Assembly: GCA_905480235.1 (NCBI GenBank)
Contig: CAJQPP010000050.1
Span: 62,001-126,000 of the forward strand
Reading direction: 5' to 3'
From: an uncultured Pirellulaceae bacterium
GTDB lineage: Bacteria; Planctomycetota; Planctomycetia; Pirellulales; Pirellulaceae
Length of the DNA stretch: 64,000 nt
Position numbers and translations under genes: made by a program
Part shown: in pieces, positions 54,833 through 58,900 of the stretch
How the letters are laid out: each line of letters begins with the position of its first letter
Numbering within the stretch: the first letter of the stretch is position 1
The notes under the pieces: generated by a model
Seen by the model: only the letters and a program-made list of their open reading frames with translations
The model's database searches: none
Told to the model about the DNA's origin: nothing

Positions 54833-56419
54833 TTAGTCATCCTCGTAATGCTTGATCTGTTCCCAGTACTTATCGAAGGCCCCGTCAACATGAAAATCAG
54901 GGCTGTTGTCTAGATCATGACAAGAGATGCACAAGCTTGCTTTGGCTTGCTCCAGGGTCACCACCATGTCTTGGACCATCTTGACGCGTTGCTCCTCGGA
55001 AACGTCGATGTCCCCATTTTCAGCGGCCACATGCAGCGATCCGGGACCGTGACAGTTTTCACAGCCGTTGCCGTGCAGCAGAGAATCCTCCAGTTTGAGA
55101 TACCCGGACTGATAGGGGAAATATTGTTGCGGGTTCCAACCGGTGACATGGCAACTCAAGCATTCTGGATCATGGTGCCGCTTGACCCAGGTTCGTTCGC
55201 CGGGATCGGTGAGGTCCGCGGTAGCACGGAAGTGCGGCCCGCCCTGACCGTCGATCCCATCTTTCCAAATATCGAAGGCCGCATCGTGGCAATCGTAACA
55301 AGCCTCGGAGCCCACATAGTTCCGACCCGAGGGGTGAGCAACTGGTTTAACTGCCAATCCCTCCAATCCGAGAGATTTGAGTTGGCTCTGGTAGCTCAGG
55401 AATTTTTCCTTGATCGAATCAGAATCCTGATAGCGAGCATCCAAAGGAACGCGTTGGTAACGCATCACGGTCTCGTTCTCTTTATCGAACAATCCCACCA
55501 CACCGACATGCATTCCTTTATTGCCCGTTTGGATCATCTGGGTTACGTGACCACTAGCCGGGTCTTCAATGATCTCAGGTTGCCCGGTTGGCTCTCCATC
55601 GACACCACAGCAAACCAGCAAATCAAAGATCGGGTATTGTTTGGCTAAGGCGCGACTGTTTTCCAGCGACGTATTGGCGACAAGCACCTTAAAATCGCAA
55701 GCCTCTTTATTCAGTGCCTGAATGGCAGATTGCAACGCAGGAGCAATCGCTTCCGTGGTCACATCGCTCATCCCCTCCAGTGATTTGAAATACTCCTCGC
55801 CGAGCACCATGGTCAGACCGATTTTTTTTCCGCCCTGCTCAATGACTTTATACTTACTCGTGAAATCCGGATCAAAGACAGTGACATTGCAAGTCACAAA
55901 ATCATCGTTGGCGATCCCCGAATTAGTCATGGCTTGCATTAATTCAATCGTGGGGAGCTTCAGGTCATTGGGACCGAGCCCAATCGCCGCATAATGCAGA
56001 TCTTCGCCTAAACACTGGTAGGTGGTTCCAATCTTCAAGTTTGCCTGTGGGCCAAATCTTCGAACCTGGTTTCCGGTATCGATTCCTACCAAGTTCCAGC
56101 CATCGTTTTGTAATTCCGTCATCAATGTGTGGCGACGCATCATGCCACCAAGTTGATTGGCCAGTCCCGTGCATCCGCAGGGCTCGATATAACCGTCCTG
56201 TCTACCGGTGATAAAAAGTGCGACCGAGGGGATTTTCCAATCGGTGAAAACTGCTTCCTGGACTTGCGCAGGTTCCTCTTCTTGCTGAACAGGTTTGCGG
56301 GTAGCGAGGTCTTGGTCCCGTTGGGCTGCAGGCTGGCCCTCTGGCGTCGAAATGGCGCCAATTAAACAGCCAAGCGACAAAATCAAAGGCAAGAAGAAAG
56401 CGTTTACTTTGTGTTGCAT
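54833..56419 (-). CDS. Phosphoesterase-like/tetraheme cytochrome c fusion
   Basis: 528 aa. Signal peptide at 1-23 (LPLILSLGCLIGAIS). Residues about 65-330 look like a 5'-nucleotidase/metallophosphoesterase-type fold, yet the metal motifs are absent: the DxH, GNHD and GHTH positions read TGRQDG, GLGPND and CCGVDG. A Cys pair EPCGC is at 79-83. The C-terminal part is a multiheme cytochrome c-554-like segment with CxxCH at 374-378, 420-424, 453-457 and 497-501. Exported and haem-loaded, so it depends on the ccsA system. Function unknown. Confidence 0.85.
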   Translation of the reverse strand: MQHKVNAFFLPLILSLGCLIGAISTPEGQPAAQRDQDLATRKPVQQEEEPAQVQEAVFTDWKIPSVALFITGRQDGYIEPCGCTGLANQLGGMMRRHTLMTELQNDGWNLVGIDTGNQVRRFGPQANLKIGTTYQCLGEDLHYAAIGLGPNDLKLPTIELMQAMTNSGIANDDFVTCNVTVFDPDFTSKYKVIEQGGKKIGLTMVLGEEYFKSLEGMSDVTTEAIAPALQSAIQALNKEACDFKVLVANTSLENSRALAKQYPIFDLLVCCGVDGEPTGQPEIIEDPASGHVTQMIQTGNKGMHVGVVGLFDKENETVMRYQRVPLDARYQDSDSIKEKFLSYQSQLKSLGLEGLAVKPVAHPSGRNYVGSEACYDCHDAAFDIWKDGIDGQGGPHFRATADLTDPGERTWVKRHHDPECLSCHVTGWNPQQYFPYQSGYLKLEDSLLHGNGCENCHGPGSLHVAAENGDIDVSEEQRVKMVQDMVVTLEQAKASLCISCHDLDNSPDFHVDGAFDKYWEQIKHYEDD

Positions 56420-56541: not shown

Positions 56542-56661
56542 TCACGGTTTGTAATTGATGAAGACTTCGTTTAGACCGCCAAATTCGGACCAGATCAGAG
56601 CGACCCCAACCAAACAACCGATGAGAGTTCCAGCGACCAAGGGAACTAGGATTTTCTTCAT
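56542..56661 (-). CDS. Possible 39-aa single-TM protein
   Basis: Short ORF of 39 codons, MKKILVPLVAGTLIGCLVGVALIW as a membrane segment, then SEFGGLNEVF. It lies between DUF4416 and the cytochrome gene on the same strand, about 120 bp before the latter. Topology suggests a small membrane protein. No Shine-Dalgarno is evident and the length is too short to be sure. Confidence 0.4.
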   Translation of the reverse strand: MKKILVPLVAGTLIGCLVGVALIWSEFGGLNEVFINYKP

Positions 56662-56706: not shown

Positions 56707-57255
56707 CTACGAGGACGAGGCGAGTTGCTGCAAGTCTTTTCGCAGATGTTCCCGGCATTCAAAAAAGAATTGGTGGTAGTCGTCTCGCTTGTAGTCGGGG
56801 TAGGTCCACCGTGATGAAATCCATTTTCCCGGAACTTGATAGAATAGGGTTATCTCAGCAAAGATGCCCTCTCCCATGTACAGTCGATGATCCCGATCTT
56901 TGGTCGTCATCAACACGACCTTGGCTTCCGTCAGGTATCCGGGATCAATGTTAAGCGGGCGCTCTGCGGCGTGCTCACCCTCATCGCAAAACGCTTTCTC
57001 CCACTCGATTGCCTGGCGTTTGGAAGAGACTAATTCTACGGGATCTACCAAGTTCTTGAACGCGACCAGTCGTTTCTTTAGGCCGCAACCCATCGTCGTG
57101 TCATAGTACGACGTCATGTCAAAATCGATATCCGGCGACTGGATCACCACCTCTCCCCATTGTTGGGCGGCCCTTTGGCATGCCCAATCCATGGCAGTGG
57201 TCTGCTGGCTAAAGATGGCGGCAAATCGTAACGAAGGCAAGTGATGACGAGGCAT
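56707..57255 (-). CDS. DUF4416 family protein
   Basis: 182 aa, cytoplasmic, function unknown. Recognised by the DUF4416 phrases SYYDTTMG near the middle, then RPLNIDPGYLTEAKVVLMTTKDRDHRLYMGEGIFAEITL, and WTYPDYK near the end. ATG 57255 is preferred; a GTG start at 57324 would translate a hexanucleotide repeat. Downstream of proS with a gap of 139 bp that holds the repeat. Confidence 0.82.
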   Translation of the reverse strand: MPRHHLPSLRFAAIFSQQTTAMDWACQRAAQQWGEVVIQSPDIDFDMTSYYDTTMGCGLKKRLVAFKNLVDPVELVSSKRQAIEWEKAFCDEGEHAAERPLNIDPGYLTEAKVVLMTTKDRDHRLYMGEGIFAEITLFYQVPGKWISSRWTYPDYKRDDYHQFFFECREHLRKDLQQLASSS

Positions 57256-57267
57256 GGTAGACCAAAA

Positions 57268-57291
57268 GGAAACGGAAACGGAAACGGAAAT
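57268..57291. repeat. Hexanucleotide repeat upstream of DUF4416 gene
   Basis: Three GGAAAC units and one GGAAAT on the plus strand (57268-57291), 13-36 bp upstream of the predicted ATG of the DUF4416 gene on the minus strand. Followed by a purine-rich stretch (GGGAGAGGGAGCG). Confidence 0.8.
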
Positions 57292-57394
57292 GGGAGAGGG
57301 AGCGAGCCGTCTCGTCAAATACACGAACCCCAGTGAAGTTGGTTTTTCAGTGTTTTGAGACGGGGTAATTCGCGATCATAAAACGTATCTTCTA

Positions 57395-58900
57395 TCAATA
57401 TGACTTAGCAAAAATCGCCCGACCTTGACTGGCTTTACCGGTGAAAATGCAGGTGCCTTTCGCTTCGTTTTCTTCCAACGGAATGCAACGGATCGTGACC
57501 TTTAAGTCCTTGCAGATCTGATCCACTTCGGCACAGTCCACGAAATGGCAATAAGCAAAACCGCCATGGATTTCAGGTCGTTTGGCATTCTTGGCGGTGA
57601 AAAACTTTTTGAATTCGTCCAGTGAGTTGATCTCGTGAGTATTGTCCTCACGTACTTGCAAGGCGCGATCGAACATACCTTGCTGCATTTCATCGAGAAT
57701 ATTGATGACATTGTCCACGAGTTCTTGGCGGTCCATTCCCGTTGATTTCGGTTGGTCGCGACGTCCCACGAAGACTTTGTTTTCTGCGATGTCGCGGGGA
57801 CCGATTTCTAAGCGTAAAGGAACACCTCGTTTAACGTGGTACCATTTTTTCTCGCCACCACGCAGATCTCGATCATCGATCATGACCTGTAGTTTTCGAT
57901 CATGATATCGCTGACTGGTAATTTCCTGTTTTAATGAATCGCAATACTCCAAGACGGCTGCGCGGTCTTCGTCGCTTCGATAAATCGGTAGGATGACCAC
58001 CTGTTTGGGCGCTAACTTGGGAGGGAGTACCAAACCGTCATCGTCGGAATGGGACATGATCAAGGCTCCGACCATCCGCGTGGAAAGTCCCCACGAAGTG
58101 GTCCAGGCGTGTTCCAATTGCCCGTCCTCACTTTGAAACTTGATGTCTTGGGCCTTGGAGAAATTCTGACCCAGGAAATGGGAGGTTCCGGCTTGCAACG
58201 CTTTGCGGTCTTGCATCATGGCCTCGATGGTCAGTGTTGAAACGGCCCCCGGGAATCGCTCGCCGGCGGTCTTTTCGCCTTTGATAACGGGCATGGCCAT
58301 CGTGTTTTCCGCGAAGTCTGCGTAAACATCCAACATCTGTCGTGTCTCTTCCCAAGCTTCATCGCTACTGGCGTGAGCGGTGTGTCCTTCTTGCCAAAGA
58401 AATTCCGCGGTTCGCAAAAACAACCGAGTTCTCAATTCCCAACGTACGACGTTGCACCATTGGTTGATCAAGATCGGCAGGTCGCGATGGGATTGGATCC
58501 ATTTTGCAAACATGTGGCCGATAATGGTCTCACTGGTGGGGCGAACGACCAGTGGTTCATCGAGTGGACCGGCAGGCACCAACCCTCCGTCTGGGCCCGC
58601 TTCCAGGCGATGATGGGTAACCACTGCGCACTCCTTCGCAAACCCCTCGACATGTTCGGCTTCTTTTTCGAGAAAGCTCTTGGGTATGAAAAGGGGGAAG
58701 TAGGCATTTTCGTGACCGGTTTCCTTGAATTTTTCATCCAGAACACGTTGCATATTTTCCCAGATCCCATAACCCCATGGTTTGATGACCATGCAACCGC
58801 GAACCGGGGATACTTCCGCCAATTCTGCTGCCTTGATGACCGCTTGGTACCATTCGGGATAATCTTCGCTGCGGGTGGGGGTGATTGCGTTCTTGGCCAT
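57395..58900 (-). CDS. proS: Prolyl-tRNA synthetase, archaeal/eukaryotic type
   Basis: 501 aa. Charges tRNA-Pro. Class II motifs include RPTSETIIGHMFAKW, WELRTRLFLRTAEFLWQEGHTAH and the C-terminal anticodon domain followed by the extra C-terminal zinc-like domain (ENEAKGTCIFTG, FAKSY). The editing INS domain of the bacterial type is absent, so this is the ProS3-type found in archaea, eukaryotes and some bacteria. The start at 58900 agrees with the family. Confidence 0.95.
   Translation of the reverse strand: MAKNAITPTRSEDYPEWYQAVIKAAELAEVSPVRGCMVIKPWGYGIWENMQRVLDEKFKETGHENAYFPLFIPKSFLEKEAEHVEGFAKECAVVTHHRLEAGPDGGLVPAGPLDEPLVVRPTSETIIGHMFAKWIQSHRDLPILINQWCNVVRWELRTRLFLRTAEFLWQEGHTAHASSDEAWEETRQMLDVYADFAENTMAMPVIKGEKTAGERFPGAVSTLTIEAMMQDRKALQAGTSHFLGQNFSKAQDIKFQSEDGQLEHAWTTSWGLSTRMVGALIMSHSDDDGLVLPPKLAPKQVVILPIYRSDEDRAAVLEYCDSLKQEITSQRYHDRKLQVMIDDRDLRGGEKKWYHVKRGVPLRLEIGPRDIAENKVFVGRRDQPKSTGMDRQELVDNVINILDEMQQGMFDRALQVREDNTHEINSLDEFKKFFTAKNAKRPEIHGGFAYCHFVDCAEVDQICKDLKVTIRCIPLEENEAKGTCIFTGKASQGRAIFAKSY

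Follow-up and report, generated by a model that had tools for sequence, protein, structure and literature searches.

A candidate thiol-haem oxidoreductase that joins a metal-less 5'-nucleotidase fold to a tetrahaem cytochrome in Planctomycetota

Introduction

What can a phosphoesterase-like domain be doing when its metal ligands are gone and a multihaem cytochrome follows it on the same chain? This question is raised by one gene in a 64,000-nucleotide stretch of DNA (hereafter the window) from an uncultured Pirellulaceae bacterium (GenBank assembly GCA_905480235.1, contig CAJQPP010000050.1, positions 62,001 to 126,000). The UshA-like family to which we relate its product has already been named and listed as a selenoprotein family, and its NF041198 model implies the haem fusion. 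UshA-like selenoproteins have nevertheless been listed in publications from 2008 at the latest with no function assigned to them, and a 2008 paper singled them out among the major families as being without the usual conserved Cys-based redox motif. Searching the open literature for EPCGC, for DUF1573 in Planctomycetes and for a metallophosphoesterase with tetraheme in planctomycetes returned no paper, and we found no description there of the DUF1573 pairing, the DsbA swap or the anchor-peptide remnant reported below.

Our favoured reading, which we consider reasonably likely, is that the window protein is an exported thiol(selenol)-haem oxidoreductase in which the ex-hydrolase fold serves as docking and active-site module. 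The family is widespread, and its probable role is the transfer of electrons between protein thiols and haems. The haem fusion, the DsbA swap and the adjacent gene for a CxC-bearing DUF1573 protein lead to a testable proposal for the UshA-like selenoproteins: electrons would pass from thiols to haems on the outer side of the cytoplasmic membrane, in a system found widely among Planctomycetota, anammox bacteria among them. The features of the locus are collected in Table 1.

Table 1. Features of the locus, in window coordinates, and the basis of each assignment.
Feature	Position	Strand	Basis
UshA-like EPCGC tetrahaem protein (whole ORF, 528 aa)	54833..56419	(-)	ORF translation, dN/dS, orthologues
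5'-nucleotidase/SoxB-fold pseudo-phosphoesterase domain, residues ~62-355	55355..56236	(-)	AlphaFold2, Foldseek, VIA-align, family alignment
TGRQDG (71-76), degenerate NDxH metal motif	56192..56209	(-)	alignment to four intact UshA-type homologues
EPCGC (79-83), Cys81-Gly-Cys83 pair; relatives have TGA (Sec) at the Cys83 column	56171..56185	(-)	codon and homologue alignments
GLGPND (147-152), degenerate GNHE/D motif	55964..55981	(-)	alignment to intact UshA-type homologues
CCGVDG (270-275), degenerate GGHxH motif	55595..55612	(-)	alignment to intact UshA-type homologues
Cytochrome c554-like tetrahaem domain, residues ~366-528	54836..55324	(-)	PF13435, PDB cytochrome c554 match
Haem site 1, CYDCH (374-378)	55286..55300	(-)	motif, invariant in alignment
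His396, candidate distal haem ligand	55232..55234	(-)	160/160 homologues
Haem site 2, CLSCH (420-424)	55148..55162	(-)	motif, invariant in alignment
Haem site 3, CENCH (453-457)	55049..55063	(-)	motif, invariant in alignment
His463, candidate distal haem ligand	55031..55033	(-)	159/160 homologues
Haem site 4, CISCH (497-501)	54917..54931	(-)	motif, invariant in alignment
His524, candidate distal haem ligand	54848..54850	(-)	138 His and 21 Cys of 160
39-aa ORF MKKILVPLVAGTLIGC...NYKP, apparently the retained N-terminal anchor of a deleted DUF1573 gene	56542..56661	(-)	alignment to sister-genus DUF1573

Results and discussion

A conserved fusion protein

The gene encodes an N-terminal export segment, the phosphoesterase-like domain and a C-terminal domain with four CxxCH sites. 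Compared with its 91%-identical orthologue in the Cli_10 genome, it shows a dN/dS of about 0.038 (dS about 1.3); it is under strong purifying selection, and this value rules out a sequencing artefact or a decayed gene. A homologue or orthologue was present in 57 of the 60 relatives searched, which also rules out a recent fusion private to the window genome. A search for plasmid relatives found none.

In NCBIfam, the window protein matches NF041198 (UshA_like_PCGU; E 5e-39, best over profile positions 344-517), with which it shares a PCG[C/U] pair on an UshA-type domain followed by a haem-bearing C-terminus in a single chain. However, it scores 134.2 bits, below the curated cut-off of 275, has Cys rather than Sec, and belongs to a Pirellulales-type clade with a longer PCGCtGL.NQ.GG loop. 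Members above the cut-off (L032-L045) have four CxxCH. A second model, NF049981 (UshA-like (seleno)protein family 2; listed motif CxxU, PMC13188914), gives a short match at the EPCGC region (residues 68-106) that reaches 13.5 bits, far below the cut-off of 140; its nearest planctomycete matches include haem-less proteins fused to DsbA, to which we return below.

A nucleotidase fold that has lost its metals

AlphaFold2, run on 68 aligned sequences, gave a model with a mean pLDDT of 90.6 and a pTM of 0.86. Foldseek and VIA-align matched its N-terminal domain to 5'-nucleotidases with Z scores of 28-31 over 275-290 residues; the matches include Thermus thermophilus 5'-nucleotidase (VIA-align Z 30.6), CD73 (about 30), SoxB (29) and E. 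coli UshA (28). The disulfide-linked SoxB-SoxYZ complex 4uwq was among the structural matches as well. Besides the fold, the GG-x-x-R, DxG and N178 signatures are shared with the 5'-nucleotidase/UshA/CD73 group (COG0737), whereas the second domain of the window protein is a cytochrome and not the substrate-binding domain of UshA.

The active site is another matter. In E. coli UshA we take the metal ligands to be D41, H43, D84, N116, H217, H252 and H254, and the catalytic residue to be H117. The ligand columns are occupied in the window protein by R73, D75, N117, P150, N249, G275 and P277, and the catalytic column by N151, so that all eight are changed. As an intact reference we used four haem-less homologues of the same phylum (L048, L049, L053 and L054), which retain NDxH, GDxN, GNHEFD, the H217-type His and GGHxH. 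The dimanganese ligands of SoxB, which occupy the same columns as those of UshA, are equally missing.

Could the protein still be a metal-dependent phosphoesterase with a rearranged metal site? The fold is intact, and 83 of the 160 haem-bearing homologues have a His where UshA has H217. Yet the alignment of these 160 contains no conserved metal-ligand column and no alternative ligand set, which leads us to reject an intact alternative site, and the window protein has no Pfam metallophosphoesterase match. We regard continued metal-dependent hydrolysis as extremely improbable; the domain illustrates clearly how a metallo-hydrolase fold can lose its metals while its cleft is kept, presumably for another chemistry. 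A preliminary description of the sequence had likened the N-terminal half to the 5'-nucleotidase fold, placed TGRQDG, GLGPND and CCGVDG at the metal-motif positions and judged metal-dependent hydrolysis unlikely. The fold prediction and the alignment to the four UshA-type homologues bear out all of this. It had also placed an EPCGC pair where the first metal motif should be; the pair is there, but its residues, 79-83, come shortly after the NDxH position (71-76) and do not coincide with it.

A Cys-Gly-Cys pair with selenocysteine in relatives

Conservation was assessed over 160 aligned haem-bearing homologues drawn from two collections, in which some species are present twice. Cys81 is found in all 160 and Cys83 in 159, a conservation that is free of selection bias in the genome-contig set, which was collected through haem motifs. 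The one exception, L058, reads PCGF, with Phe for the second Cys and the haems still in place; it is the single homologue of its kind. No further Cys, His or Met close to the pair is invariant among the 160.

At exactly the Cys83 column, homologues from several lineages have an in-frame TGA, with the frame otherwise open and four CxxCH downstream. Besides several lineages of planctomycetes, they include a deltaproteobacterium (L169) and Krumholzibacteriia (L180), and SelB was found above its cut-off in all TGA-bearing planctomycete genomes tested. In the planctomycete set the TGA is repeatedly followed, at a distance of about 20 nt, by a stem-loop that shows a compensatory change (CUGGGC..GCCCAG versus CUCGGC..GUCGAG); the SECIS z-scores of single sequences are weak to modest, and this shared stem is the only suggestive part. 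UshA-like proteins are listed as CxU selenoproteins (PMC2398784, PMC9312934, PMC13188914). The substitution of Sec for the second Cys points to chemistry and not to a structural disulfide. A CxC this well conserved would fit metal binding or persulfide carriage too, and both are weighed below.

Selenoprotein status of the window gene itself is ruled out, for its Cys83 codon is TGC, although the genome has a full-length SelB (381.7 bits; G000:C39:24932-26821). As a separate observation, the Sec-type homologues L092-L097 form tandem pairs, a CGU gene followed by a DVCGC gene, both tetrahaem.

A cytochrome c554-like wire

The C-terminal domain matches Pfam PF13435 (Cytochrome_C554; 43.3 bits against a cut-off of 20.8, residues 373-458), and the closest solved sequence is Nitrosomonas cytochrome c554 (PDB 1bvb, E 1.2e-5). 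The likeness to Nitrosomonas CycA extends to four CxxCH in the same order and three distal His; the differences are the fusion to a pseudo-phosphoesterase and the lack of any link to hydroxylamine oxidation genes. All eight haem Cys and all four proximal His are present in 160 of 160 homologues, which is partly selected for because our searches used haem motifs or full-length profiles. A few of the 21 Cys at the His524 column stem from poorly aligned C-termini. In the Sec-type group, a C-terminal Cys (..ACPP..) stands where other homologues have this distal His.

In cytochrome c554, three haems are six-coordinate (bis-His) and one is five-coordinate and open. The three near-invariant His outside the CxxCH sites (396, 463 and 524) for four haems would fit that pattern. 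This leaves room for a reading in which the haems do the work, perhaps at a five-coordinate haem as in c554, while the ex-hydrolase is a docking scaffold only and the CxC a structural disulfide; L058, which manages without the second Cys, is consistent with it. Replacement of Cys by Sec is, however, hardly expected of a structural disulfide, nor would such a disulfide be likely to be the best-conserved feature of its domain, and disulfides between the Cys of a CxC are strained. We therefore think this reading improbable and retain that of a thiol-haem oxidoreductase.

The cytochrome is exchanged for a DsbA-like domain

Through the NF049981 matches we reached haem-less relatives in another planctomycete class (L190-L198). 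These carry an UshA-like domain with PC[DN]C, a DsbA-like domain with CPxC and some 300 residues more, among them conserved Cys. Comparison of the haem-less PC[DN]C homologues with the window family by hhalign (99.6%, E 8e-25, 278 columns) confirms, at the level of sequence profiles, the common descent of the two UshA-like domains. In eight of eight haem-less proteins a single CPxC takes the place of the start of the haem domain and is followed downstream by a cis-Pro-type motif. All members of a seven-sequence alignment matched Pfam DSBA, some of them below threshold (best E 8e-8), and a profile of the swapped domain found DsbA in the PDB (E 5e-6). That the CxC module occurs in fusion with a haem wire in some proteins and with a thioredoxin-type redox domain in others is the strongest indirect evidence for a redox role.

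With thiol-disulfide oxidoreductases the window protein thus has in common a conserved Cys pair with Sec substitution, while its fold is that of a 5'-nucleotidase and not of thioredoxin, and it is the haem-less relatives alone that have a DsbA-like domain. The preliminary description had suggested a redox protein with a docking or thiol-redox module and four haem sites. The four sites were located as listed in Table 1, the pair and the haems are retained jointly in 159 of the 160 aligned haem-bearing homologues, and the thiol-redox half of that suggestion gains independent support from Sec at Cys83 and from the DsbA-like swap, both of which argue for a putative redox activity.

The same relatives bear on a further alternative, in which the CxC is a site for Cu, Zn or a similar metal and the protein a metal sensor or an electron carrier for metal delivery. 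The CxC pairs of other proteins are known to bind soft metals, and copper-resistance proteins account for several of the DsbA-like structures that the swapped domain matched in the PDB. Against this, Sec at the second position and the DsbA swap itself point to redox chemistry, and the pair lacks additional invariant Cys, His or Met nearby. We hold a metal site to be distinctly unlikely and continue with thiol redox chemistry as the preferred reading.

A DUF1573 protein as likely partner

If the pair reacts with another protein, its gene neighbours could tell us with which. In the order to which the window belongs and beyond, the adjacent upstream gene has the same orientation and encodes a DUF1573 protein of about 400 aa, scoring 40-70 bits with PF07610 (cut-off 26). 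Among the 95 loci with upstream gene sequence, DUF1573 is immediately upstream in 63 and within 300 bp in 62. The pairing spans Pirellulales, Planctomycetales, Gemmatales and the anammox Scalindua/Brocadiaceae, and in two more loci the neighbour is a divergent DUF1573-like protein with C[AS]CG that the DUF1573 profile did not detect.

A CxC is present in 64 of the 71 upstream DUF1573 proteins of at least 280 aa. AlphaFold predicts for one of them (pLDDT 86.6) a membrane helix at the N-terminus together with three Ig-like domains, with the CxC modelled in a loop of the first of these domains, and Foldseek matches it to HYDIN/ASH-type Ig domains. DUF1573 is on published lists as a UGC selenoprotein family, and the DUF1573 genes of the loci examined contain no TGA; nor did these loci hold a natural fusion of DUF1573 with an UshA-like domain. 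A few partners are without the CxC (L076, L078 and L083), and in the window genus the domain itself is gone, so a strict CxC-to-CxC exchange is not universal.

SoxB docks the Ig-like Cys carrier SoxYZ, and this is the closest structural analogy to the pair of UshA-like and DUF1573 proteins. It also brings in an alternative from sulfur metabolism, in which the CxC/CxU would carry or remove the sulfane or persulfide of a partner Cys and the haems would take up the electrons of sulfur oxidation. In its favour are the SoxB fold (Z 29), the match to 4uwq and a DUF1573 partner that is Ig-like, as SoxYZ is. However, the SoxB-type metal ligands are all gone, no sox genes, SoxYZ included, occur among the conserved neighbours, and the DsbA swap favours ordinary dithiol chemistry. 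The window protein differs from SoxB also in its CxC and covalently fused haems, and the likely partner of proteins of its type is DUF1573, not SoxYZ. Sulfur handling thus seems to us rather unlikely, and our preference remains with electron transfer between thiols and haems.

Two side observations concern the wider neighbourhood. A gene for an O-antigen-ligase-like TPR protein and one for a family-4 glycosyltransferase often lie upstream of the DUF1573/UshA-like pair. In Blastopirellula marina, a second paralogue group (GWIVPCGCTSNQSGG; L178, L179 and L176) adjoins an exported protein that ends in a CCCCGG motif and a VWA-like protein, not DUF1573.

A proposed thiol-to-haem route

We infer redox activity of the CxC, docking and the identity of the partner, and propose the following scheme. 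A fold of the 5'-nucleotidase/SoxB type has lost its dinuclear metal site, and at the rim of what was the active site the Cys-Gly-Cys, or in relatives the Cys-Gly-Sec, would carry out reversible dithiol/disulfide chemistry with a docked thiol partner. By analogy with SoxB and SoxYZ, the partner thiol may be received in the old substrate cleft. The fused c554-like domain would then pass electrons over its four haems to or from the electron-transport chain; as to the direction, our guess is that thiol oxidation feeds the haems. In most planctomycetes, the likely partner or substrate would be the membrane-anchored, Ig-like DUF1573 protein encoded just upstream, with its own CxC.

It is possible, and we put this forward tentatively, that the two proteins make up an extracytoplasmic redox system as a whole, with the CxC of DUF1573 and the CxC/CxSec of the pseudo-nucleotidase meeting in a docking like that of SoxYZ on SoxB, electron traffic between thiols and haems, and an interchangeable electron module. 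That module is tetrahaem in most planctomycetes and DsbA-like in one class. If such a system exists, the hydrolase fold would join the scaffolds for thiol-redox catalysis as the third, and the UshA-like and DUF1573 families, both of them orphans among the selenoproteins, would share a function.

An anchor-peptide remnant at the window locus

In the window itself, the place of the partner is taken by a 39-aa ORF that aligns with the first ~38 residues of the DUF1573 protein of a sister genus. The ORF is found in the Cli_10 genome as well, with 14 synonymous and 4 nonsynonymous changes, which shows that it is maintained by purifying selection in the genus and not decaying. From these alignments, we take it to be a small membrane protein that arose through truncation. 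The sister genus (L083) retains a full-length DUF1573 protein, which has lost its CxC. The lineage of the window thus seems to have shed first the thiols of the partner and then everything but the membrane anchor, while strong selection on the EPCGC tetrahaem protein has persisted.

Outside the genus, we did not find the ORF as a small gene of its own, and the window genome (87% complete) contains no other full DUF1573 of the partner type. A low-scoring DUF1573 relative in that genome was considered and rejected as a substitute; it is of a different type and is also present in the sister genus beside the true partner. Since DUF1573 is reduced to an anchor peptide in the window genus, another thiol partner must serve there. 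Further upstream, at window positions 56707-58900 (-), lie genes for a DUF4416 protein and a proline-tRNA ligase, an order common to several relatives.
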